64,000 nucleotides of DNA from contig NZ_JAMHFY010000006.1 of NCBI RefSeq assembly GCF_023897015.1, positions 62,001-126,000 on the forward strand, written 5' to 3'. Source of the stretch: Desulfosporosinus nitroreducens (lineage in GTDB: Bacteria > Bacillota > Desulfitobacteriia > Desulfitobacteriales > Desulfitobacteriaceae). A model generated the notes under the pieces. The model did no database searches, was not told where the DNA came from, and saw only the letters and a program-made list of their open reading frames with translations. The position numbers were made by a program, and so were the translations under genes. Shown here piece after piece: positions 21,598 to 42,756 of the stretch (position 1 is its first letter; every line of letters starts with the position of its first letter).

Positions 21598-22607
21598 CAT
21601 GGGGTACACATCAATGAAACCAGTAGAAAACGCTAAAGGAACTGGATTCATGAGCGCAGAAGAGCAGGTAATCGTACTCGAAAAACGCATAGATGAATTG
21701 GAGCTAGAAAACAAACGACTCCACGATAGTGTTGACTATTTGACGCGCAAGCTCTTCGGCAGAAGTACGAGAAGACATCGTCCCTTGCTTTGGGGCAGAT
21801 GTCTCTTTTTGATGAGGCTGAAACCCAAGCCGATCCACTGGCGCCAGAGCCTGACCTTAAGGAAGTACAGGGTTACCGGAAAAAGAAATTCAAAGGTCAG
21901 CGTAAGGAACTTTTGAAGGATATACCTCATGTTAAACGTCTTTGTACCCTTGATGAACGAGACCGCCTTTGTGAAACGTGCAACACCGCTCTTGTGTCGG
22001 TCGGTGAAGAATTCATCCGTAATGAGATCGAGTTCATTCCTGCCAAAGTTAGGGTGATCGATTACTACCGCGAAACCTTCGAGTGCCGAACCTGTCGTAA
22101 AAACGGGGAACCCTACATGGAGCCATCACCCATGCCTTACCCGGTCATCCAACATTCCATGGCTTCACCTTCCACCGTGGCATGGGTCATGCATCAGAAG
22201 TTCGTCAACGCCCTTCCCCTTTACCGTCAGGAAAAGGAGTGGAAGACACTGGGGGTGAACCTAAGTCGTGCTACCATGGCCAATTGGATTCTAGCCGCAT
22301 CCCGCGACTGGTTGGTGCCCCTGGTAGAGCTCATGCATCAGAAGCTCTTGCAAGAAAATTATCTACATGCGGATGAAACAACCGTTCAAGTTATGAATGA
22401 AGAGGGACGGAAGAATACCACCGATTCCTACATGTGGGTATACAGCACAGGCCAGTATTGCAAACACCCCATCAGAATCTTCGAGTACCAGCCAGGCAGG
22501 AGCGGCAAATACCCTCAGAAGTTCCTAAAAGGGTTCAAAGGATACCTTCACTCGGATGCATACTCTGTGTACAAGAAGATTCCAGACATCACAAGGTGCC
22601 TCTGTTG

Positions 22608-22614
22608 GACACAT
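22608..22614 (+). repeat. GACACAT left flank of the RIT element
   Basis: GACACAT recurs at 26097-26103 where the IS66 reading resumes, consistent with a target-site repeat. On the right it lies 24 bases beyond the inverted repeat, so the duplication reading is tentative. Confidence 0.45.
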
Positions 22615-22663
22615 TATCCAAGAGAAATGATTATCCGAGAAGAATCTCTGCATGTAGCATAAA
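22612..22663 (+). repeat. left 52-bp terminal inverted repeat of the RIT element
   Basis: Begins CATTATCCAAGAG and ends GTAGCATAAA; reverse complement of 26021-26072 with a single C/T difference. Contains GATTATCC twice-over structure and leads into a palindromic region. Confidence 0.93.
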
Positions 22664-22759
22664 TGCAGGATTTTTTCTTGCTTTTCTCAAATAAATATAT
22701 TTCCCTGTACAATGAATTAGAAACCATATAATACCATTTCGTTGTACAGGAGGTACCCC

Positions 22760-23984
22760 ATGAAAAAAGAAGAACTAAGAACCCCGTCGATTGTTGATTT
22801 GAAACAGGGATTGTTGGCGATACTCCAGGCCAAATCCTACACAGAAAGAACTTTAAATAATTACAGGCGTACGCTGACAATACTCGAATCATATATGTAT
22901 GATAATGGAATTGCTACATACACACCGGTGGTCGGAACTGCATTCATCACGGATTATCTTTCAAAACATAATCTTGGCATTTCGCGGCAAAAAGCCATTG
23001 CTACTATGGTAAATCGGTTAAACGATTATTACAATGGCACTGATTATGCCATACAAAGGAAACAGGAAATAGTACTCCTTCCGGGAAGCTATGAAGGTTT
23101 GTTGAAGTCTTACCTGTCGTACTGCAGGAAAAATGGGAATAAGGAAGGAACCATTGTAGCGAAAAGATCATTCTGTAGCCGATTTCTTATGTATTTGTCC
23201 GATTTAGGATGCCAAGAACTCAGTGAATGGACTTCTTCATACATATGCAAAGCTTGAGAACAAGGACGAATGGGCTGTCATCCGTATGTTCCTTAAATTT
23301 TTGAATCTGAGTGATCTGGTTGATGCAGACTATTCCACACTGGTTCCTCATTATAAGAAAGCAACAATTATACCCGTTACATATTCCGAAAATGAAGTTC
23401 ATAGGTTTGAATCAGCGATTGACAAAACCATTGCCACCGGCAAAAGAGACTATGCAATGCTACTCCTTGCCACCAGACTAGGGATGCGTTCCGGCGACAT
23501 TGCAAAACTATCGCTGGATAAGTTGGACTTTGAGCAGGATACAATTCATCTGATACAAGAAAAGACCAGCCAGCCTCTGGATCTGCCTATGTTGCCGGAA
23601 ATAAAAGAGGCTCTCGATGATTACATTGAAAACGGCCGCCCCAAAGTTGATGAGAATTATGTTTTCTTACGGATGAATGCGCCTTACCAGCGGATTACCA
23701 CGTCTGCCTTAAGGTTTGCTACAACGAGATATTTCAAGGAAGCAGGAATTGATATATCCGGTAAAAAGCATGGCCCCCATACTTTCCGTTCATCATTGGC
23801 CAGCTCTATGGTCAATGATGACATTCCGTATGATGTTGTCCGTAGTATTCTCGGACATACAGATCCGGATGCAGTCAAACACTATGCAAAACTGGATATA
23901 GAAAGGCTGCGAGAATGTGCCATAGAAGTGCCAGAGCCATCCGGCATCTTCAAGGAATTCCTTGATGGAGGGATACAATCATGA
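22760..23984 (+). pseudogene. ritA: RIT tyrosine recombinase A, apparent frameshift
   Basis: ATG behind CAGGAGG. The N-terminal SAM-like DNA-binding half reads to about 23257 (ends SYICKA then stop). The catalytic half continues in another frame from about 23223-23256 with LENKDEWAVIRMFLKFL onward and holds the tyrosine-recombinase residues: Arg in LGMRSGDIAKL, HxxR in HTFRSSLAS, and GH...Y in LGHTDPDAVKHYAKL. One extra base (or two missing) near 23250 explains the break. Together about 407 residues. Could be real decay, sequence error or recoding. The last codons overlap ritB. Confidence 0.8.
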
Positions 23985-24964
23985 TTCGGTTTGAAAGTAT
24001 CCTTAAAAATGAACTGTCGGAATTCCTGTCAATCAGGGAAGTATCCTTAAGTAAAAACGCCTTTGACCATGACTGCCATTACCTAAAAAAATTTGACGAT
24101 TATCTTGTACGTTGCGGATGCTACATTAAAGAACTTACAGAAGATACGATCATGGGATGGGTGAGTTCCCTGACTGGAAAAAGCAGTTCCATTGCAAATG
24201 AAGTGATTGTTATCAGGATTTTTCTCAGTCGTCTCAACAGCATTGGAATGCAGGCGTACATTCCACCGGTTCCTAAAGTTGCTGATGACTATGTTCCATA
24301 TATTTTTTCAGATATAGAGTTGGATAGGATTTTTATACTTGTAGACAACATTACAATGACGAAAAGTCAACCGAATCCCTATATCCAGCTTGAATATCCT
24401 ATGGTTCTCAGACTCATGTATGGCTGTGGACTCCGCATAGGAGAAACACTTGCGTTAAGAATGAAGGACGTTGATCTTGATAACGGGGTGCTCACACTGA
24501 GACATACCAAAGGAGACAAACAACGCCTTGTGCCGATGCATATATCCCTGGTTTTAATTCTGCGAAGCTATTGCATGGCAATGGGATTGATAGGAAAAAC
24601 AGATTCATTCTTGTTCCCGAGTACCTCTTCGGACACTCCTATGTCAACAAAAACTGCGCTCCATAGGTTTGAGAACATCTTAAAGCTGTCCGATATCTCA
24701 TTACCTGGGAGAAGAAAACATCAAAGAGGTCCATGCCTACATTGCTTGCGCCACGTTTTTGCTTTCAAATCGTTTGCAAAGGCAGAGAAGGATGGCCGTG
24801 GGATAAACGATTCGGTTCCTTACCTGTCCATTTATCTTGGACATGACAGTTTGAAGGAAACAGAAAAATATCTTAAATTCAGTAGCGAACTGTATCCTGA
24901 AGCAATGGAATTGTTTGAAGATTACACTGCACAGATTTTTCAGGAGGTTGACTATGAAGAATAA
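23981..24964 (+). CDS. ritB: RIT tyrosine recombinase B
   Basis: A 327-residue tyrosine recombinase. Catalytic residues are intact: Arg in YGCGLRIGETLAL, HxxR in CLHCLRHVFAFKSF, and the GH...Y region LGHDSLKETEKYLKF. A CxxC-like LHC precedes the second Arg. The ATG overlaps the ritA stop (ATGA) and its end overlaps ritC, so the three are translationally coupled. The name follows the order used for RIT elements. Confidence 0.88.
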   Translation: MIRFESILKNELSEFLSIREVSLSKNAFDHDCHYLKKFDDYLVRCGCYIKELTEDTIMGWVSSLTGKSSSIANEVIVIRIFLSRLNSIGMQAYIPPVPKVADDYVPYIFSDIELDRIFILVDNITMTKSQPNPYIQLEYPMVLRLMYGCGLRIGETLALRMKDVDLDNGVLTLRHTKGDKQRLVPMHISLVLILRSYCMAMGLIGKTDSFLFPSTSSDTPMSTKTALHRFENILKLSDISLPGRRKHQRGPCLHCLRHVFAFKSFAKAEKDGRGINDSVPYLSIYLGHDSLKETEKYLKFSSELYPEAMELFEDYTAQIFQEVDYEE

Positions 24965-25979
24965 TTCCTCTGGATTTCTGGAACTCCTTAATGCTTATAT
25001 CTCCAGTTATCTTCCACGTGCTGTCGGAGCAAGCGCTAACACTGTGAAATCCTATAAATATGCCTTTCGTCTGCTGATTGAATTTATGTACCAACAGAAG
25101 GAAATCCAGGCTGATAAGATCGCTTTCGAAAATCTTGATTATGAGACGTTAATGGAGTTTTTTACGTGGATCGAAGAAGAACGTGGCTGTAGCGTATCTA
25201 CAAAGAACCAGAGGCTGTCAGCGTTGGCATCTTTCTCTGAATACGCCCAGAACCGTGACTTTGCGGCAGCATCGGTTTTCAGGAACAGTATCAATAAGAT
25301 TCCTATGAAAAAAGCATCAAAAAAGAAAAGGGCTGTTTTTTCAATGCAAGAGGTCACAATACTACTAAAGTTACCAGATAGCTCTAAAGAAACATGTCTC
25401 AGAGACAAAGTCCTTCTCAGCCTGATGTATGCAAGCGGAGCCAGGGCTCAGGAAATCTGCGATCTTACAGTAGGAAACATACAGTTCCATCCGAAGAGGG
25501 CCTCACTAAATATAAAGGGCAAAGGCGGAAAGACCAGGAGGATTGGTATTCCCAATGCATGTGCAGTCATGCTAAAACGTTATATGGCCCATAGAAATCT
25601 CAACGACAAACCTGAAAGACATGTTTTTTCCAGTCAGACACATGAGCAGATGACGGTCTCCTGTATCGAAGAGATATTTAAGAAATATGTAAGCATTGCC
25701 AAAAAGGGAAATCCATCGTTGTTTCAAGAAGACAGTTATCCACCCCACTCTATGAGACATTCAACGGCAAGCCACATGTTGGAAGCTGGAGTTCCTTTGG
25801 TTGTTATTAAAAATTTCTTAGGACATGCCTCCCTCCAATCAACTCAGATTTATGCGGAGATTTCTCAAAATACCGTAGACAAACATTTAAAAGAGTGGAA
25901 TGAAAAATGGTTTCCTCGTAACATGACGAACGAAGAAGAACATACCAAAAAGGATAATATACCTGATTTTTTAAAATGA
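24954..25979 (+). CDS. ritC: RIT tyrosine recombinase C
   Basis: A 341-residue tyrosine recombinase, XerC/D-like. N-terminal SAM-like domain (VKSYKYAFRLLIEFM) and catalytic domain with Arg in YASGARAQEICDL, Lys in KGKGGKTRRIGI, HxxR in HSMRHSTASHML and LGHASLQSTQIYAEI with the nucleophile Tyr. Start ATG 24954 has CAGGAGG; it overlaps ritB by 11 bases. Ends 42 bases before the right inverted repeat. Confidence 0.9.
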   Translation: MKNNSSGFLELLNAYISSYLPRAVGASANTVKSYKYAFRLLIEFMYQQKEIQADKIAFENLDYETLMEFFTWIEEERGCSVSTKNQRLSALASFSEYAQNRDFAAASVFRNSINKIPMKKASKKKRAVFSMQEVTILLKLPDSSKETCLRDKVLLSLMYASGARAQEICDLTVGNIQFHPKRASLNIKGKGGKTRRIGIPNACAVMLKRYMAHRNLNDKPERHVFSSQTHEQMTVSCIEEIFKKYVSIAKKGNPSLFQEDSYPPHSMRHSTASHMLEAGVPLVVIKNFLGHASLQSTQIYAEISQNTVDKHLKEWNEKWFPRNMTNEEEHTKKDNIPDFLK

Positions 25980-26020
25980 CCGTGTATGATTATCCAAGAA
26001 AAAGAGAAGAATCTCTGGCA

Positions 26021-26072
26021 TTTATGCTACATGCAGGGATTCTTCTCGGATAATCATTTCTCTTGGATAATG
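26021..26072 (+). repeat. right 52-bp terminal inverted repeat of the RIT element
   Basis: Reverse complement of 22612-22663. Just inside it, 25988-26020 carries a second, partial copy (ATTATCCAAGAAAAAG..., AGAAGAATCTCTG) that can pair with the repeat to form a large hairpin. Confidence 0.93.
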
Positions 26073-26804
26073 GCTCTTATTCGAGAACTGGAATAAGACA
26101 CATCTTCGAAGGAACTTCGTCGATGCCCTTCCGAAAGATATCCATAACCCGGAAGCCACCCTTCCAAGCCAAGGCATTGCATTCTGCAACAAACTCTTCG
26201 AGATTGAAAAGACTCTCGAGAGTCTTTCGACCGAACAACGCAAATCGGAGCGTCTGAAACAGGAAAAACCCGTTTTAGAGGCTTTTTGGGCGTGGATTGA
26301 TTCGACTAGAGGTGAGGTGCTGCCAAAATCCAAACTGAGTGAGGCTTTGGCTTATGCTCTTAACCATAAGGAAGAGTTTATGAATTATCTTAAGGATGGC
26401 AATTGCTCCATTTCTAACAACCTTGCGGAAAACAGTATCCGGCCTTTTACCATCGGACGGAAAAACTGGTTATTCAGCGGAAGTCCAAAAGGAGCTTCAG
26501 CAAGTGCCGCCGTATACAGCATCATCGAAAGTGCTAAGGCAAATAGTCTCAATCCGTATAAATTCTTCAGTTTATCTTTAGTGAATTGCCGGGGGTGCAG
26601 TTTGGTCCACATCCGGAATTCCTTGAAGATTACCTTCCGTGGAGTCCAGAAGTTCAAGAAGCGTGCCAATAGAGCAAAAACTCAGTTTACACGAGTTTTT
26701 GCTTTTTTTATATCCACCGAGTTATTTGACGCTTACGATCATCCTGAGTCAACACTCCATAATTATGACCATCCGTTCAGCACGTGGTTTTCGTTTAGAC
26801 AACA

Positions 26805-26836
26805 AAATTCCCCGGTTCTTCGAACCGGGGGAATTT
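26805..26836 (-). terminator. terminator of the bacteriocin-like operon
   Basis: Perfect 14-bp stem AAATTCCCCGGTTC / AACCGGGGGAATTT (one G-T type offset) with TTCG loop. On the minus strand it is followed by TTTTG, 70 bases after the VKOR-like gene. Confidence 0.72.
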
Positions 26837-26908
26837 CAATGAACTTTTCATTTTAAGTCTTTTTATTTTCGCCCTAATTCTCATCACTCGGTTCAGAAAA
26901 TAACCTTA

Positions 26909-27328
26909 CTAAGGATTCATTTTCCATATCGGTTTTAGAATAATATCGTAAAGCATTATCACTAGAATAAAGCAATAAAGAATAGAAGAAATCACACAAT
27001 TTGTACAGATAGCTTGATAAAGTTCGTAACGACTGATTTGAAGAAAACTACTAAATCCGACGAAGAAGATACTGAAAAATAGGGATATATAAGCAATAAT
27101 TTTAAATTTATCTGAGAAATAGTATAAAATTAAAAATAATAAAATAGAAGCGATTGCCAGAATAGCTAATGTCTTTTCATTTATAGGTAGGTAAGGAACA
27201 TTATGGCATATAGCACAGCTGCTTGTTCTATATTTATCCCAAGTAGTATAAGCTATAAGAATAATATTGATTAAACAAATAAAAGGAATAAGTAGACTGC
27301 GGAATTTAATTATGCTTTTCATATTCAT
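26909..27328 (-). CDS. VKOR/DsbB-like membrane thiol oxidase (putative)
   Basis: About 139 residues with four or five hydrophobic helices and two cysteine pairs: SSCAICHNVPYLPIN after the first helix and AICTNCVISSILYC in a later helix. A loop cysteine pair plus a membrane CxxC is the layout of VKOR-type enzymes that pass electrons from thiol oxidation to quinone. The frame extends to 27439, but ATG 27328 (or 27322) with TAAGG just upstream fits better. Downstream of a cysteine-rich secreted precursor, it probably helps form its disulfides. Family assignment is by topology and motifs only. Confidence 0.58.
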   Translation of the reverse strand: MNMKSIIKFRSLLIPFICLINIILIAYTTWDKYRTSSCAICHNVPYLPINEKTLAILAIASILLFLILYYFSDKFKIIAYISLFFSIFFVGFSSFLQISRYELYQAICTNCVISSILYCFILVIMLYDIILKPIWKMNP

Positions 27329-27512
27329 AACCTTATATATTACTCCTTTCTTTTGAACCAATAGATGATGAATCCCTTTAGCGAATGGTTGAGCAGTTTT
27401 TTGTATAATCCATTTATAGGAACAAAATTTAACTTGCATTTGGTCTAATCCTTAGTAAAAATAGCCAAGTTCGAAAAGTATATTAAAACAATTAGCTTTT
27501 TCTTGAATATTC

Positions 27513-27707
27513 CTAAAGCAATAATTTTATTACATTTAATAGACCAATTGTTATTAAAATTATTGCTTGCACTTTCCCGGATTTAATAATTACTGAATCC
27601 ATATCGTTAGATAATTTCTTTATAAAGTCAATATAGATCTGTGTATTTGAGAATAAATACAGAAAAATACCGACAACTAGCACTCCGAGCCAAATAAATA
27701 AAGTCAT
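27513..27707 (-). CDS. small two-helix membrane protein (possible immunity protein)
   Basis: A 64-residue protein with an N-terminal hydrophobic helix (LFIWLGVLVVGIFLYLF), a polar middle containing several Lys and Asp, and a C-terminal helix (AIILITIGLLNVIKLLL). ATG 27707 has GGGAG seven bases upstream. I do not recognise a family. Its place between the precursor and the thiol-oxidase gene suggests immunity or export help; that is inference. Confidence 0.6.
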   Translation of the reverse strand: MTLFIWLGVLVVGIFLYLFSNTQIYIDFIKKLSNDMDSVIIKSGKVQAIILITIGLLNVIKLLL

Positions 27708-27731
27708 ATTATTAACTCCCATAATTTTAGA

Positions 27732-28430
27732 TTATAGATTATCACAATACCAAGGGCATCCATAAGTGCACGCTCCCCAAGTGAATCCAGCACACAAAAA
27801 TGCACATGTGAATACTCCTGCACCAAGAGATGCTGAAGTGCAGAAAACATAACATCCTCCCATTGATATTCCCATAGTACACATACCATTACAGAATTCT
27901 TCACAAAAAGAATCTGCATATGCAGGTTTAATGAAATAGCTCAAAATTTTATTTTCTTTTTTCGGAATTCTATTAGTTTCAGTAATAATTTTTTTATTAG
28001 CATCAACATTTATTACAGAAACATTAATCCCTTCTGAATCGCTAGATTCTCCAATGATTGCACCAGCAAAAGATTCCCCATTTTTTGTGGCAATACCCAT
28101 TATTCCAGGTTTGCCGTCTTTAACAAAAATTGTAGACAATACCTGGACAGGTGTATTATCCGAAGTATCAATTATTTCGATCAAACTTGTTTTACCAACT
28201 TTATAATCTCCGACCAGTATGGATTTTTGCAATTCTTTATATTGATCTTTCTCTGATACAGCTTTAAACTTTTGAACATTTTCAGAGATTGAAAGCTCTT
28301 TAATATTTGTATAAGGTGATTTAGAACTCATTTCTTTAGCGCTTAAACTCCCACCAAAAACAGGCGCAACAAATAATACTGTACAAATTAAAACGGCTAT
28401 TACCTTTTTGAATTTTCTTAGATAGTACAT
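27732..28430 (-). CDS. secreted cysteine-rich bacteriocin-like precursor (halocin C8-like layout)
   Basis: A 232-residue protein: signal peptide (about residues 1-31, VIAVLICTVLFVAPVFGGSLSA), a Cys-free middle of ~140 residues, then a 60-residue C-terminal domain with ten cysteines starting SFCEEFCNGMCTMG and rich in Gly, Ala and aromatic residues. An AxA-type site (PAYA before DSFC) would release the tail. Ten Cys in a glycine-rich C-terminal domain after a long propeptide is the organisation of halocin C8-type bacteriocins, in which the N-terminal part acts as immunity protein. No activity is shown here. AAAGGGG precedes the ATG. Confidence 0.62.
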   Translation of the reverse strand: MYYLRKFKKVIAVLICTVLFVAPVFGGSLSAKEMSSKSPYTNIKELSISENVQKFKAVSEKDQYKELQKSILVGDYKVGKTSLIEIIDTSDNTPVQVLSTIFVKDGKPGIMGIATKNGESFAGAIIGESSDSEGINVSVINVDANKKIITETNRIPKKENKILSYFIKPAYADSFCEEFCNGMCTMGISMGGCYVFCTSASLGAGVFTCAFLCAGFTWGACTYGCPWYCDNL

Positions 28431-29286: not shown

Positions 29287-29532
29287 AACATGGTAATGGT
29301 CACTCATCAAGACCATGTTGGAAGCCTCTCATGCATTCTAAGAGAGTTGCCTAATAGTGTCAAAGTACTTGCCCATAAAGAAGAAAAGCATATCCAGGGT
29401 GAGAAACTCAAAGCCTTTTATGAAAATAGTGAACCCAATGTAAATAAAGCAATTTCCGATGGTGAAGAATTGCCATTTTGCGGAGGAATCACTGTCATAT
29501 ACACTCCAGATCACACGCTAGGTCATATTTGA
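29287..29532 (+). pseudogene. metallo-beta-lactamase-fold hydrolase fragment
   Basis: About 80 codons matching the middle of an MBL-fold protein (VTHQDHVGSLSCIL, ELPFCGGITVIYTPDHTLGHI). The active-site HxHxDH is reduced to THQDHVGS, two residues short, and both the N-terminus and everything after GH(I) are missing. Confidence 0.7.
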
Positions 29533-29840: not shown

Positions 29841-29914
29841 ATTTTGCAAAATAGAATACAACCATTGACTGTGGGGCAGGATAAGTCATATAATAAAATA
29901 TAATTTTGCAAAAT
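29841..29914 (+). promoter_or_regulatory. promoter flanked by two identical palindromes (putative operators)
   Basis: TTGACT (29865-29870), 18-base spacer, TATAAT (29889-29894). The 12-bp perfect palindrome ATTTTGCAAAAT occurs at 29841-29852 and again at 29903-29914, 62 bases apart, bracketing the promoter upstream of the ATPase gene. The rest of 29533-29840 shows no gene. Confidence 0.65.
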
Positions 29915-29938
29915 TATTGCAGAATGGAGGAAAAAAAT

Positions 29939-31282
29939 ATGTTGCTTGAATTTAAAGCCAAAAATTATAAGTCCTTTAAAGATGAATTGGTTTTTACAAT
30001 GGTTCCTGCGCCTAAACAAAAAGGGCTCAATTATAGCATTTTAAATCAAAAGATTGGTTCTAAAAAATATAAAGGGTTAAGTTCTGCAGTAATCTATGGA
30101 CCTAACGCCTCTGGTAAAACGAATATTATTGGGGCAATGGAGGCTTACAAATCGATTATCCTGAGAGGTAATATTCGTAACGCCGATGTAAAGAATGCCC
30201 CAAACCCGGCGGGAAGCACATTAGAGCTAATACCAAACAGCAGTTTGACCGAACTAAATCCCGTTGATTTTGCAATTAAGTTCATTGAAAACAAACTTTT
30301 AATTCAATATGATCTTTCTATCGATATTGGTAATTTCCTAGATGCTGAATACCCACGGAGGATTTTGTCCGAAACATTAACCGTAAATGAAGAGATGGTT
30401 TTTTCAAGAAAGGAAAAATTAGAATTTGGTTCGCTAAAAACTATAAAAGACTATTTAATCAATGAGTTTGAGGAGAATTCTAATAGTGCAACATCTTTGG
30501 CCAGGAGCAATCTAAATCAAGAAGAGATGTTCCTGACAAATGGATTCAAGGCAATGTTCAGTTCAAAACTTGTAAATCTAATCCTCAATTGGTTAGAAAA
30601 TAAATTCATGGTTATATATCGCGCTGACACTCTTCATTTGATTCAGAAGTTCGCTGATCCTAGAAAGCATACAGTATATATCGAAAAAACAACAAACGAT
30701 GCTGCACAACTGTTTGGTATCAACTCTAACGCCCTTGGATACGTAGTTTCAGAAGATGATCTAGAGGCCAAATTATGCTCGATTTTCAAAAATAAAAAAG
30801 CAGTAATAGCCGCAGAAATGTTTGAGTCCTATGGTACTATTCGATTCGTAAATATGTTTCCGCTTGTTATCAAGGCAATATTAACCGGCGGAACATTGGT
30901 TGTTGATGAATTTGATGCCTCCTTGCACCCAATGGCGCTGATGAGTATTATTAGCATTTTCCACAACGATGATATAAATAGGAAAAACGCACAACTTATT
31001 TTTAATACCCATAATCCGATTTTTTTGAACTCAAATCTATTTAGGCGTGATGAGATTAAATTTGTTGAACGCGATGATGAAACACATTTTAGCAAGCACT
31101 ACTCATTATCTGACTTTGGAACCACTGGAGAAAAAGGGGTACGTCTACACGAAGACTACATGCACAATTATTTCATTAGTCAGTACGGAGCTATTAATGA
31201 CATCGATTTTACTTCTATTTTCGAAAAACTTGTAGATGAAAATGAGGTGTTAGCTAAAGTTGGCAAAGATGAAATCGAATAA
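29939..31282 (+). CDS. AAA ATPase of RloA/AbiLi type (phage defence)
   Basis: A 447-residue ABC/OLD-like ATPase. The N-terminus (LLEFKAKNYKSFKDE) is typical of AAA_15/AAA_21 proteins; Walker A GPNASGKTN at about residues 54-62; Walker B region LVVDEFDASLHP near 319; and a switch His in FNTHNPIFLN near 355. ATG 29939 has GGAGG at ideal spacing. It overlaps the RloB-family gene, the pair known from restriction-linked RloAB and abortive-infection AbiL systems. Location on an island fits defence. Confidence 0.85.
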   Translation: MLLEFKAKNYKSFKDELVFTMVPAPKQKGLNYSILNQKIGSKKYKGLSSAVIYGPNASGKTNIIGAMEAYKSIILRGNIRNADVKNAPNPAGSTLELIPNSSLTELNPVDFAIKFIENKLLIQYDLSIDIGNFLDAEYPRRILSETLTVNEEMVFSRKEKLEFGSLKTIKDYLINEFEENSNSATSLARSNLNQEEMFLTNGFKAMFSSKLVNLILNWLENKFMVIYRADTLHLIQKFADPRKHTVYIEKTTNDAAQLFGINSNALGYVVSEDDLEAKLCSIFKNKKAVIAAEMFESYGTIRFVNMFPLVIKAILTGGTLVVDEFDASLHPMALMSIISIFHNDDINRKNAQLIFNTHNPIFLNSNLFRRDEIKFVERDDETHFSKHYSLSDFGTTGEKGVRLHEDYMHNYFISQYGAINDIDFTSIFEKLVDENEVLAKVGKDEIE

Positions 31283-31928
31283 AAAATACTACTTTACTGT
31301 GGAAGGCGAAACAGAAAGGTGGTACCTACTATGGTTACAGGGTCAAATTAACAATGAGGCTTCTTCAACGCATACAGTTACTTTAAATTGCCCGATCGAA
31401 AAAAATCCTCTGAAGCGGGCTAAGTCATTAATCTTAACTGGCGTAAAAAACAAAACTGTGATTACCCATATTTTTGATCGAGAAAGCGAAGAAGAAGTCC
31501 ACACCAAACAGTTTTATGACACGTTAGACGCAATGAAAAAATCTGAGCGCTTGGGGAAGCAAATTAAATATCAGTTGGGCTATAGCAACTTCACATTTGA
31601 ACTCTGGATGGTTCTACACAAGGTGGATTGCAATCGGTCATTTACACGTAGAAGCCAATACCTTCAATCAATTAATCGTGCGTATATAGAGAATTTCCCG
31701 AATCTAGATCAGTATAAACAAGAAACAAACTTTCATCGTGTCTTAAGCAAACTAACCCTAGCTGATGTGAAGGATGCAATTACTCGTTCAAAATGTATTA
31801 TGCAGAGAAACGCACAAGCTGGTTACACACTCCACGAATACAAAGGGTACAAATATTATAAAGAGAATCCGTCCCTTTCAATTTGGGAATCGATTGAAAA
31901 AATACTTGCCGACTGCCACCTCTTATAA
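31269..31928 (+). CDS. RloB/AbiLii-family protein
   Basis: A 219-residue protein with the RloB N-terminal pattern YYFTVEGETERWYL and the later acidic THIFDRESEEEV, which fits a TOPRIM-like nuclease core with Glu and Asp metal ligands. The middle has the family's YSNFTFELWMVLHK. It overlaps the ATPase gene by 14 bases (ATG 31269; TTG 31260 is alternative), implying coupled translation. Probably the effector of the pair. Confidence 0.82.
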   Translation: MKSNKKYYFTVEGETERWYLLWLQGQINNEASSTHTVTLNCPIEKNPLKRAKSLILTGVKNKTVITHIFDRESEEEVHTKQFYDTLDAMKKSERLGKQIKYQLGYSNFTFELWMVLHKVDCNRSFTRRSQYLQSINRAYIENFPNLDQYKQETNFHRVLSKLTLADVKDAITRSKCIMQRNAQAGYTLHEYKGYKYYKENPSLSIWESIEKILADCHLL

Positions 31929-41245: not shown

Positions 41246-41295
41246 ATTTAGAGTAACTGTTGGCAAGGGTCAGAAAAGAGAGGATTTGGATATCA

Positions 41296-42756
41296 ATGTT
41301 AAATTTAGTGTATTTCAAGGATTATTCTATTAAAAAGAATGTACACAGTTATCGCCAAGGAGACTTATTCATCGCACATGATGTCAATTCTGGCTCGTTA
41401 CATGTCCTTGATGAGGGAGCTTATGATGTAATTAAGGCTATTGAGAAGTTGCAGGAGATGTTGGAAACTGTAACCACAGAGGGGATCTGCCAGATCCTTA
41501 GGCAAGCAGGTAAAACAGTAATCGCGGAAGAACTTTCTGAGATTCTTGATGAGCTGGAGGAACTGCGCAAGGAAGGTACACTTTTTTCCGCAGAGGCGGA
41601 GAACGTGCTTCCGATGTACCCAGAAAAGCCAATTGTCAAGGCCATCTGCCTCCACGTGGCTCATGACTGCAATTTACGCTGTGAATATTGTTTTGCAGGG
41701 ACAGGGGCTTTTGGCGGAAGTCGAACGATGATGGATGTGGAGACCGGTAAGAAGGGGATTGACTTTGTTATAGAGTCGTCGGGACATCGGGATCACTGTG
41801 AAGTTGATTTCTTCGGCGGTGAACCATTACTTAATTTTGGGTTGATCAAGTCCTTAGTCGAATACGGCAGAAAGGCTGGAAAAGCCCATGGTAAAACCAT
41901 CAAATTCACTCTGACTACTAACGGCGTATTACTGAATGACAGAATCCAGGAATTTCTTGAGCAAGAGGAAATCAGTGTGGTTTTGAGCTTAGATGGTCGA
42001 CCAGAAGTCCATGACCGAATGAGGCCCTACGCTGATGGTCGAGGGAGCTACGCCAAAGTTACCCCTCTAATCAAACAGTTTGCTGCCAAACGACCAGAAA
42101 GCTCACCTTATGCGCAGGGGACATATTACTATGTTAGGGGCACGTACACCCATTTTAATCTGGATTTCGATCGGGATGTTTTGCACATGGCAGATTTAGG
42201 GATAAAACAAATTTCTGTGGAACCTGTTGTAGCAAGCCCTAAGGACGCTTATGCTTTTCAAGAGGGAGATCTTGAAAAAATACATGAAGCCTATGATCGC
42301 CTCGGTGAGGAGCTATTATTACGCCGTGCTCAAGATAGAGATTTTAATTTCTTCCACTTTAATATTGCCTTAGATCAGGGACCTTGCATGATTAAACGCC
42401 TTTCAGGATGCGGAGCTGGTCATGAGTATGTGGCCATATCTCCGGAGGGAGATCTTTATCCGTGTCACCAGTTTGTTGGGCAGGAGGCCTACAAACTAGG
42501 GTCACTTTACGATGAAAACCCTCATCAACTAAAGGACGAAGTGGTGAAGAGTTTTCGTTCAGCTCATGTATATAGTAAGCCGCTTTGCAGAGAATGTTGG
42601 GCTCGCTTTGCCTGCAGTGGGGGATGCCATGCAGCTAACGTTTCCTTTACTCAAAGCTTAACAGACGTTTATACTTTGGGGTGTGAGCTTCAGAAAAAGC
42701 GTTTAGAAGTAGCATTTTATATAAAGATTAAAGAAATCCAACAAGATTTAATGTAA
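41296..42756 (+). CDS. scfB: SCIFF maturase, radical SAM/SPASM enzyme
   Basis: A 486-residue peptide-modifying enzyme. N-terminal RRE-like winged domain, radical SAM CxxxCxxC in HDCNLRCEYCFAG near residue 125, GGEPLLNF SAM site, and C-terminal SPASM clusters (CGAGHEYVAISPEGDLYPC, CRECWARFACSGGC). It installs thioether bridges on the adjacent peptide. I chose ATG 41296 with AGAGAGG upstream; the longer TTG form adds an unlikely N-terminus. Confidence 0.95.
   Translation: MLNLVYFKDYSIKKNVHSYRQGDLFIAHDVNSGSLHVLDEGAYDVIKAIEKLQEMLETVTTEGICQILRQAGKTVIAEELSEILDELEELRKEGTLFSAEAENVLPMYPEKPIVKAICLHVAHDCNLRCEYCFAGTGAFGGSRTMMDVETGKKGIDFVIESSGHRDHCEVDFFGGEPLLNFGLIKSLVEYGRKAGKAHGKTIKFTLTTNGVLLNDRIQEFLEQEEISVVLSLDGRPEVHDRMRPYADGRGSYAKVTPLIKQFAAKRPESSPYAQGTYYYVRGTYTHFNLDFDRDVLHMADLGIKQISVEPVVASPKDAYAFQEGDLEKIHEAYDRLGEELLLRRAQDRDFNFFHFNIALDQGPCMIKRLSGCGAGHEYVAISPEGDLYPCHQFVGQEAYKLGSLYDENPHQLKDEVVKSFRSAHVYSKPLCRECWARFACSGGCHAANVSFTQSLTDVYTLGCELQKKRLEVAFYIKIKEIQQDLM

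Follow-up and report, generated by a model that had tools for sequence, protein, structure and literature searches.

A candidate disulfide-stapled bacteriocin encoded beside its own VKOR-like oxidase in Desulfosporosinus nitroreducens

What is produced by a short gene unit that encodes a secreted-looking precursor with a cysteine-rich end together with a small membrane protein carrying two CxxC pairs? This question is raised by a locus of Desulfosporosinus nitroreducens lying within a stretch of 64,000 nucleotides, which was analysed at its full length and is named here the window. The answer favoured in this work is that the product is probably an antibacterial peptide, secreted and stapled by disulfides, which comes with its own VKOR-like oxidase; killing, oxidation and immunity are inferred. 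The features of the locus are the following:

28430-26810, minus strand: three-gene unit with its terminator (ORF reading, pattern scan and fold test)
27732..28430, minus strand: precursor gene, 232 aa, with signal peptide, propeptide and ten-cysteine tail (ORF; relatives of like layout beside a VKOR-like gene)
28338..28430, minus strand: predicted Sec-type signal peptide, residues 1-31 (putative cleavage site, placed by eye)
27915..28337, minus strand: propeptide, residues 32-172, with PAYA at its end (sequence; low-confidence beta-rich model)
27735..27914, minus strand: ten-cysteine tail, residues 173-232 (cysteine count; putative cut site)
27513..27707, minus strand: 64-aa protein with two hydrophobic helices, candidate immunity protein (ORF; stretches read by eye)
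26909..27328, minus strand: VKOR-like membrane protein with CAIC and CTNC (ORF; family profiles)
26810..26830, minus strand: intrinsic terminator (pattern scan and shuffle folding)

A sequence-only reading of this DNA had described a three-gene minus-strand unit ending in a terminator, and the ORFs lie as it described them. The VKOR-like gene ends at 26909 and has two candidate starts, 27328 (139 aa) or 27322 (137 aa). Genes 2 and 3 are separated by 184-190 nt, which makes the co-transcription of gene 3 likely, though unproven. The terminator consists of a 9-pair stem with 7 GC pairs followed by a T-rich tail. The pattern scan by itself is not above chance (1 found vs 1.5 expected in shuffles); the stretch folds better than 200 of 200 shuffles (z -3.3). 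Promoter-like sites are not clearly above chance either (17 found vs a mean of 11.7, sd 3.5). The unit contains no exporter, protease or recognisable immunity gene.

Related to the surroundings of the unit, an IS66 transposase at 21790-26505 is split by an element with tandem tyrosine recombinase genes, the first of them apparently split in two frames. This element is flanked by 88-nt inverted repeats (22612-22699 and 25985-26072), and we take it to resemble a recombinase-in-trio element. Next to the bacteriocin-like unit, on its other side, an AAA_21 ATPase (AbiEii-like) followed by an RloB-like protein forms a candidate defence pair at 29906-31928, and an apparent remnant at 29290-29532 gives a weak metallo-beta-lactamase-fold match (PF00753, E 0.0018, below cut-off). 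Besides, a SCIFF peptide maturase is encoded at 41260-42756 (TIGR03974, E 2.3e-175).

The 232-aa ORF bears out the layout proposed earlier, that is, a signal peptide, a Cys-free propeptide and a Cys-rich tail, secretion being read from the start of the protein. This start (MYYLRKFKK, a hydrophobic core and LSA-KE) is lysine-rich and looks secreted by eye. The only further cysteine of the precursor (residue 16) sits in the signal peptide, so that the propeptide proper is Cys-free. The tail has ten cysteines in 60 residues, against five in the best of the 61 other ORFs of at least 100 aa in the window. Their gaps are 3, 3, 8, 3, 11, 3, 7, 3 and 3; the number of ten cysteines given before is right, but the middle gap is 11 and not 10. 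The pattern is nearly symmetrical, most cysteines being spaced by four residues or by multiples of four, which would suit paired helices stapled side by side. The helices are a reading of the spacing, since the AlphaFold model is not usable for the tail: the mean pLDDT of the precursor was 41.9, with values below 30 in the tail and a propeptide that is beta-rich at low confidence. The tail is hydrophobic (GRAVY 0.72) and contains no His, and its calculated mass is 6365 Da, assuming a cut after PAYA and five disulfides. Family-model searches gave no known-family match for the tail, and no match to the precursor was found among plasmids or phages; a PHROG of unknown function matched it weakly (E 0.017). 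In the 44 other genomes of the family no relative was found at E 0.01, a search that overlooked even the relative described below from genome G014.

The CAIC and CTNC pairs reported earlier in a small membrane protein are present in the ORF ending at 26909. By sequence comparison, this third protein appears to be a remote relative of VKOR that scores below the Pfam cut-off. Against PF07884 (gathering cut-off 27.5) it gives 10.4 bits (E 0.72) with most of its length covered, and its best relative, from G014, is also under the cut-off with 19.1 bits (E 0.0015); at E up to 1, 4 of 12 members of this protein family match. Classical VKORs were not found at E 0.001 in any of the 45 genomes of the bacterial family. 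An alignment was made of 18 of the 23 loci collected. Three near twins were left out, L030 (of the Carboxydocella locus) and, by eye, L040 (of L035) and L061 (of L060), and so were the degenerate L039 and the truncated L043, which lacks the second pair. The alignment contains five invariant columns, four of which are the two CxxC pairs. When the resulting profile was compared with the PDB at E up to 10, all four matches were VKORs: three were variants of one Synechococcus VKOR (best E 0.057), and the fourth was a VKOR-like protein of a fish. The second CxxC is aligned to the CxxC of the Synechococcus enzyme at this E value, the first pair lying outside that alignment. A 12-member profile gave a single match, again a VKOR (E 2.7). 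On the other hand, the fold comparison does not set VKOR apart: a two-sequence AlphaFold model (pLDDT 65) does have four long helices and finds VKORs among its neighbours (Z 8.6-9.6), but not above unrelated four-helix bundles (Z up to 10.8). The earlier proposal of a VKOR-like protein is retained on the invariant pairs and the PDB profile search; the Pfam score speaks against it, and the fold search does not separate VKOR from other bundles.

A first scan of genome contigs confirmed no relative. In a genome of the same genus (G014), a VKOR-like relative was found with 31% identity (E 4.5e-19), and the gene directly upstream encodes a precursor that looks secreted, has ten cysteines in its tail and is 26% identical to the window precursor. 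Behind the same VKOR-like gene (L003, 1920-2015), part of the Cys tail seems, by eye, to be present a second time in decayed form. The distribution is patchy: the VKOR-like gene occurs in 2 of 45 family genomes. Profiles matched 5 of the 82 genomes searched in the class, 14 of the 398 in the phylum, and 5 of 20 and 6 of 63 in two related classes, the profiles and E limits differing between searches and the genome sets overlapping. Altogether the relatives amount to 23 distinct loci in 20 genomes, Carboxydocella thermautotrophica strain 41 being one of the hosts.

Cys-tailed precursors are found at 14 of these 23 loci, intact and adjacent in ten, on an overlapping contig in one and broken in three. 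The intact ones, on the same strand and within about 1.1 kb, are those of the window, L003, L011, L031, L032, L033, L034, L041, L042 and L059. In G240 the start of the precursor contig overlaps the end of the VKOR contig by 438 identical bases. The broken precursors are frameshifted with respect to the near twin L031 (L030), interrupted by one in-frame stop with the ten-Cys tail still readable (L038), or split beside a truncated VKOR (L043). The precursor test gave 8 of 23 loci when only the first start codon was used and 10 of 23 when inner starts were allowed; no other of the 227 ORFs examined passed it, and none of 127 ORFs lying beyond 2.5 kb passed its first version. The count of pairings is descriptive and not an independent probability, because the criteria were set after the examples and the loci are centred on the VKOR-like gene.

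The remaining loci are of several kinds. The VKOR-like gene lies beside a thioredoxin-fold protein, without a qualifying precursor, in L009 and L010. In L060 (4705-6260) and L061 (3727-5283), both from one genome, it lies beside a secreted Amidase_6-type protein with several cysteines, assigned by family scan in the former and by similarity in the latter. In L035 (5268-7197) and L040 (4590-6153) the neighbour is a secreted protein that is larger and poor in cysteines; it is split over two frames in L035, has no family match in its intact L040 copy, and is perhaps a second kind of substrate. Finally, the precursor of L062 has only four tail cysteines, the VKOR-like gene of L036 is at a contig end, and that of L039 (the same locus as L045) is degenerate. 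The VKOR-like family, found also beside thioredoxin, amidase-like and other secreted proteins, is thus not confined to bacteriocins. As for the trio of genes, whose co-occurrence elsewhere had been named as a check, the Cys-tailed precursor does recur with the CxxC membrane protein, but the exact trio is not conserved.

The tails themselves were also used for searching. Of the matches that a profile of three tails (window, G014 and G130) gave in 398 genomes, two were its own members (G000 and G130) and one was their near twin (G084); the others were a new precursor in the pairing (G240) and a match of 33 residues in a 43-codon frame (G118). Independent support from this search comes from G240 only. 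A second class of tails contains nine cysteines in L011 and eight in both L041 and L042. Its relatives are found on small plasmids of Bacillus pumilus, B. amyloliquefaciens, B. subtilis, B. siamensis and Levilactobacillus brevis, as well as on a large Streptomyces plasmid. In the L. brevis case (plasmid pUCCLBBS449_G; L076, 3940-5210) the precursor is divided over two ORFs, and the gene next to the Cys-tail ORF is an annotated thioredoxin family protein. No annotated oxidase was seen beside the precursor on the three Bacillus plasmids examined (pBP6000, pMC1 and the B. subtilis PRO35 plasmid). Plasmid searches with the L062 precursor, the window VKOR-like protein and the L033 VKOR-like protein gave no match, and a single plasmid match of the L032 tail (E 7) was dropped as meaningless. 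When the profiles of both precursor classes were compared, only the first 95 columns, mainly signal peptide, could be aligned, so that common descent of the tails is not supported.

The earlier reading had compared the window tail with halocin C8-type domains. The HMM search gave no match of the window precursor to TIGR04449 or TIGR04450 at E up to 10, and its membership in the halocin C8 families was rejected on these curated models. TIGR04449 was found in none of the 82 class genomes, and neither model scored above cut-off in the 398 phylum genomes. The sub-threshold matches in the phylum (TIGR04450 in 4 of 398 and TIGR04449 in 1 of 398) were discarded, the ORFs inspected having no Cys-rich tail. 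Two related precursors do match halocin C8-like families weakly, which makes the halocin comparison a good lead: L062 against the NCBI Gram-positive halocin C8-like model (E 5.6e-5, 22.9 bits vs a cut-off of 27) and L043 against the halocin C8 domain model (E 0.0079, 17.2 bits vs a cut-off of 24). Weaker matches, below cut-off, were given by L032 (E 0.66) and L042 (E 0.17). Judged by these models, the system appears to lie near the halocin C8-like families and is not a member of them.

The most serious competitor of the bacteriocin reading is that the tail is a stapled structural or surface domain, such as a coat, an adhesin or an enzyme cap, folded by a dedicated oxidase and not toxic at all. 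This is considered possible, although rather unlikely. It fits with the company that the VKOR-like family keeps at loci where its neighbours are un-bacteriocin-like secreted proteins, namely the Amidase_6 protein and a protein of 382 residues without family. Nevertheless, oxidases that are 65-66% identical (L033, L034 and L041) serve tails with 12, 6 and 8 cysteines, a pattern expected of fast-changing toxins. The patchiness of the oxidase gene within the family, the presence of related precursors on small plasmids and the contact of two of them with the halocin C8-like models also speak against a structural domain.

Regulatory genes at the related loci raise a second alternative. At least three of these loci carry agr genes: AgrB genes adjoin L011, L033 and L035; kinase and LytTR genes were confirmed by family search in L011 and L033, and L035 contains a separate AgrD-like gene (TIGR04223, E 5.8e-13). 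The tail could accordingly act as a secreted signalling peptide or pheromone, which the oxidase would mature and the agr-type kinases of the relatives would sense; the neighbouring kinase, AgrB or regulator genes would fit this. It is, however, improbable: with AgrB at the agr-bearing loci and an AgrD-like gene of its own in L035, the signal is already accounted for there; no agr or kinase gene was seen beside the window unit among the ORFs listed; and, to our knowledge, 60 residues with ten cysteines are unlike known Gram-positive pheromones. As regards maturation of the peptide, a subtilase motif scan of 24 stretches found a gene or fragment at three loci, L032 (where Pfam agrees), L039 and that of G014, and none in the window. 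Subtilases are therefore candidate cutters of the propeptide.

The small second gene (27513-27707, minus strand) encodes 64 residues with two hydrophobic stretches by eye, as had been described. It has no significant family match and no demonstrable homologue, so the immunity role given to it is a guess. Its place in a conserved trio could not be upheld: the sole candidate match, a likeness between P0003 and L011, was dropped as not significant (E 0.50), and the G014 pair has no small gene between its members. By eye, and not in a systematic count, a small membrane protein lies near the pair in L011, L031, L033, L034, L038 and L041. These proteins differ in kind, that of L033 being PLDc_N-like (E 0.00033, below cut-off) and that of L034 having no Pfam match; such variability might suit immunity. 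Very little probability is assigned to the idea that the CxxC membrane protein itself protects the producer, by reducing the peptide or holding it at the membrane, and that the small protein has another function: it would explain the absence of a recognisable immunity gene and the recurrence of the CxxC protein while small proteins vary, but the relatives that pair with thioredoxins and other secreted proteins fit a folding enzyme better. Equally improbable is a tail that binds copper or zinc through its ten cysteines, many of them in CxxxC pairs, and is kept reduced by the membrane protein, since the tail is hydrophobic and without His, the membrane protein resembles an oxidase family, and neither a metal transporter nor a regulator was seen in the unit.

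According to the bacteriocin reading, the precursor would be exported by Sec, as its signal-peptide-like start suggests. Outside the membrane, the VKOR-like protein would pair the ten tail cysteines into five disulfides, the electrons passing, by homology with VKOR, through two CxxC pairs on the outer face to the membrane quinone. A protease might then free the hydrophobic tail of roughly 60 residues, perhaps at PAYA-DS, and the producer could conceivably be protected by the 64-residue two-helix protein. Beyond this locus, we give even chances to a wider proposal, in which undescribed, multiply stapled bacteriocins are widespread in Bacillota-type lineages, probably anaerobic, with a private miniature VKOR that uses the quinone pool, agr quorum sensing in some of them and thioredoxin in place of VKOR elsewhere.

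No description of a VKOR-bacteriocin pairing was found in the open-licence library searched. If true, the pair would point to unexplored stapled antibacterial peptides. Disulfide formation in exported proteins of anaerobic Clostridia is described as an open question (PMC12453122). If the hosts are anaerobes, as seems likely, one multi-cysteine substrate with one tiny oxidase, in a family whose 45 searched genomes gave no classical VKOR, would make a clean test system.

The third protein resembles VKORs in where its cysteines lie, one pair following helix 1 and a CxxC preceding the last helix; its low-confidence model has four long helices. In classical VKORs the first Cys pair is wider than CxxC. 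The window protein differs in that its first pair is a CxxC, in its sub-cut-off Pfam score and in having no thioredoxin beside it in the window. VKORs from Clostridia function in E. coli, where one of C. difficile complements dsbB (PMC12453122).

The window precursor (232 aa; 10 cysteines in 60 aa) is, like that of halocin C8, long, secreted-looking and Cys-rich in its C-terminal domain. Halocin C8 has ten cysteines in the C-terminal domain of a long precursor. The latter, ProC8, is a protein of 283 aa that yields HalI and a 76-aa halocin and is exported by Tat (PMC11509114). In contrast to this Tat export, the window precursor starts with MYYLRKFKK and, by eye, without a twin arginine; other differences are that an oxidase gene is part of the window unit and that its precursor has no model match.

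Secreted precursors that need both proteolysis and a disulfide are also exemplified by EntV of Enterococcus faecalis, which depends on GelE and DsbA (PMC6606811). EntV differs in its single disulfide and in that DsbA belongs to the core genome and is encoded away from the EntV gene.

Sublancin is an established case of a bacteriocin with a dedicated oxidase (PMC6391423). There, the operon (sunA, sunT, bdbA, sunS, bdbB) includes BdbB, which closes the disulfides of sublancin, and the peptide has its leader cut by SunT and carries a sugar and two disulfides (PMC6391423). The likeness is a bacteriocin with a dedicated thiol-disulfide oxidoreductase, whose counterpart in the window would be the VKOR-like protein. 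The unit at 26810-28430 encodes neither an ABC transporter-peptidase nor a glycosyltransferase, and in this lack of a transporter and a glycosyltransferase it departs from the sublancin operon. Compared with sublancin, its precursor starts in Sec-type fashion, carries a propeptide of about 140 aa and has ten cysteines, and its oxidase is VKOR-like.
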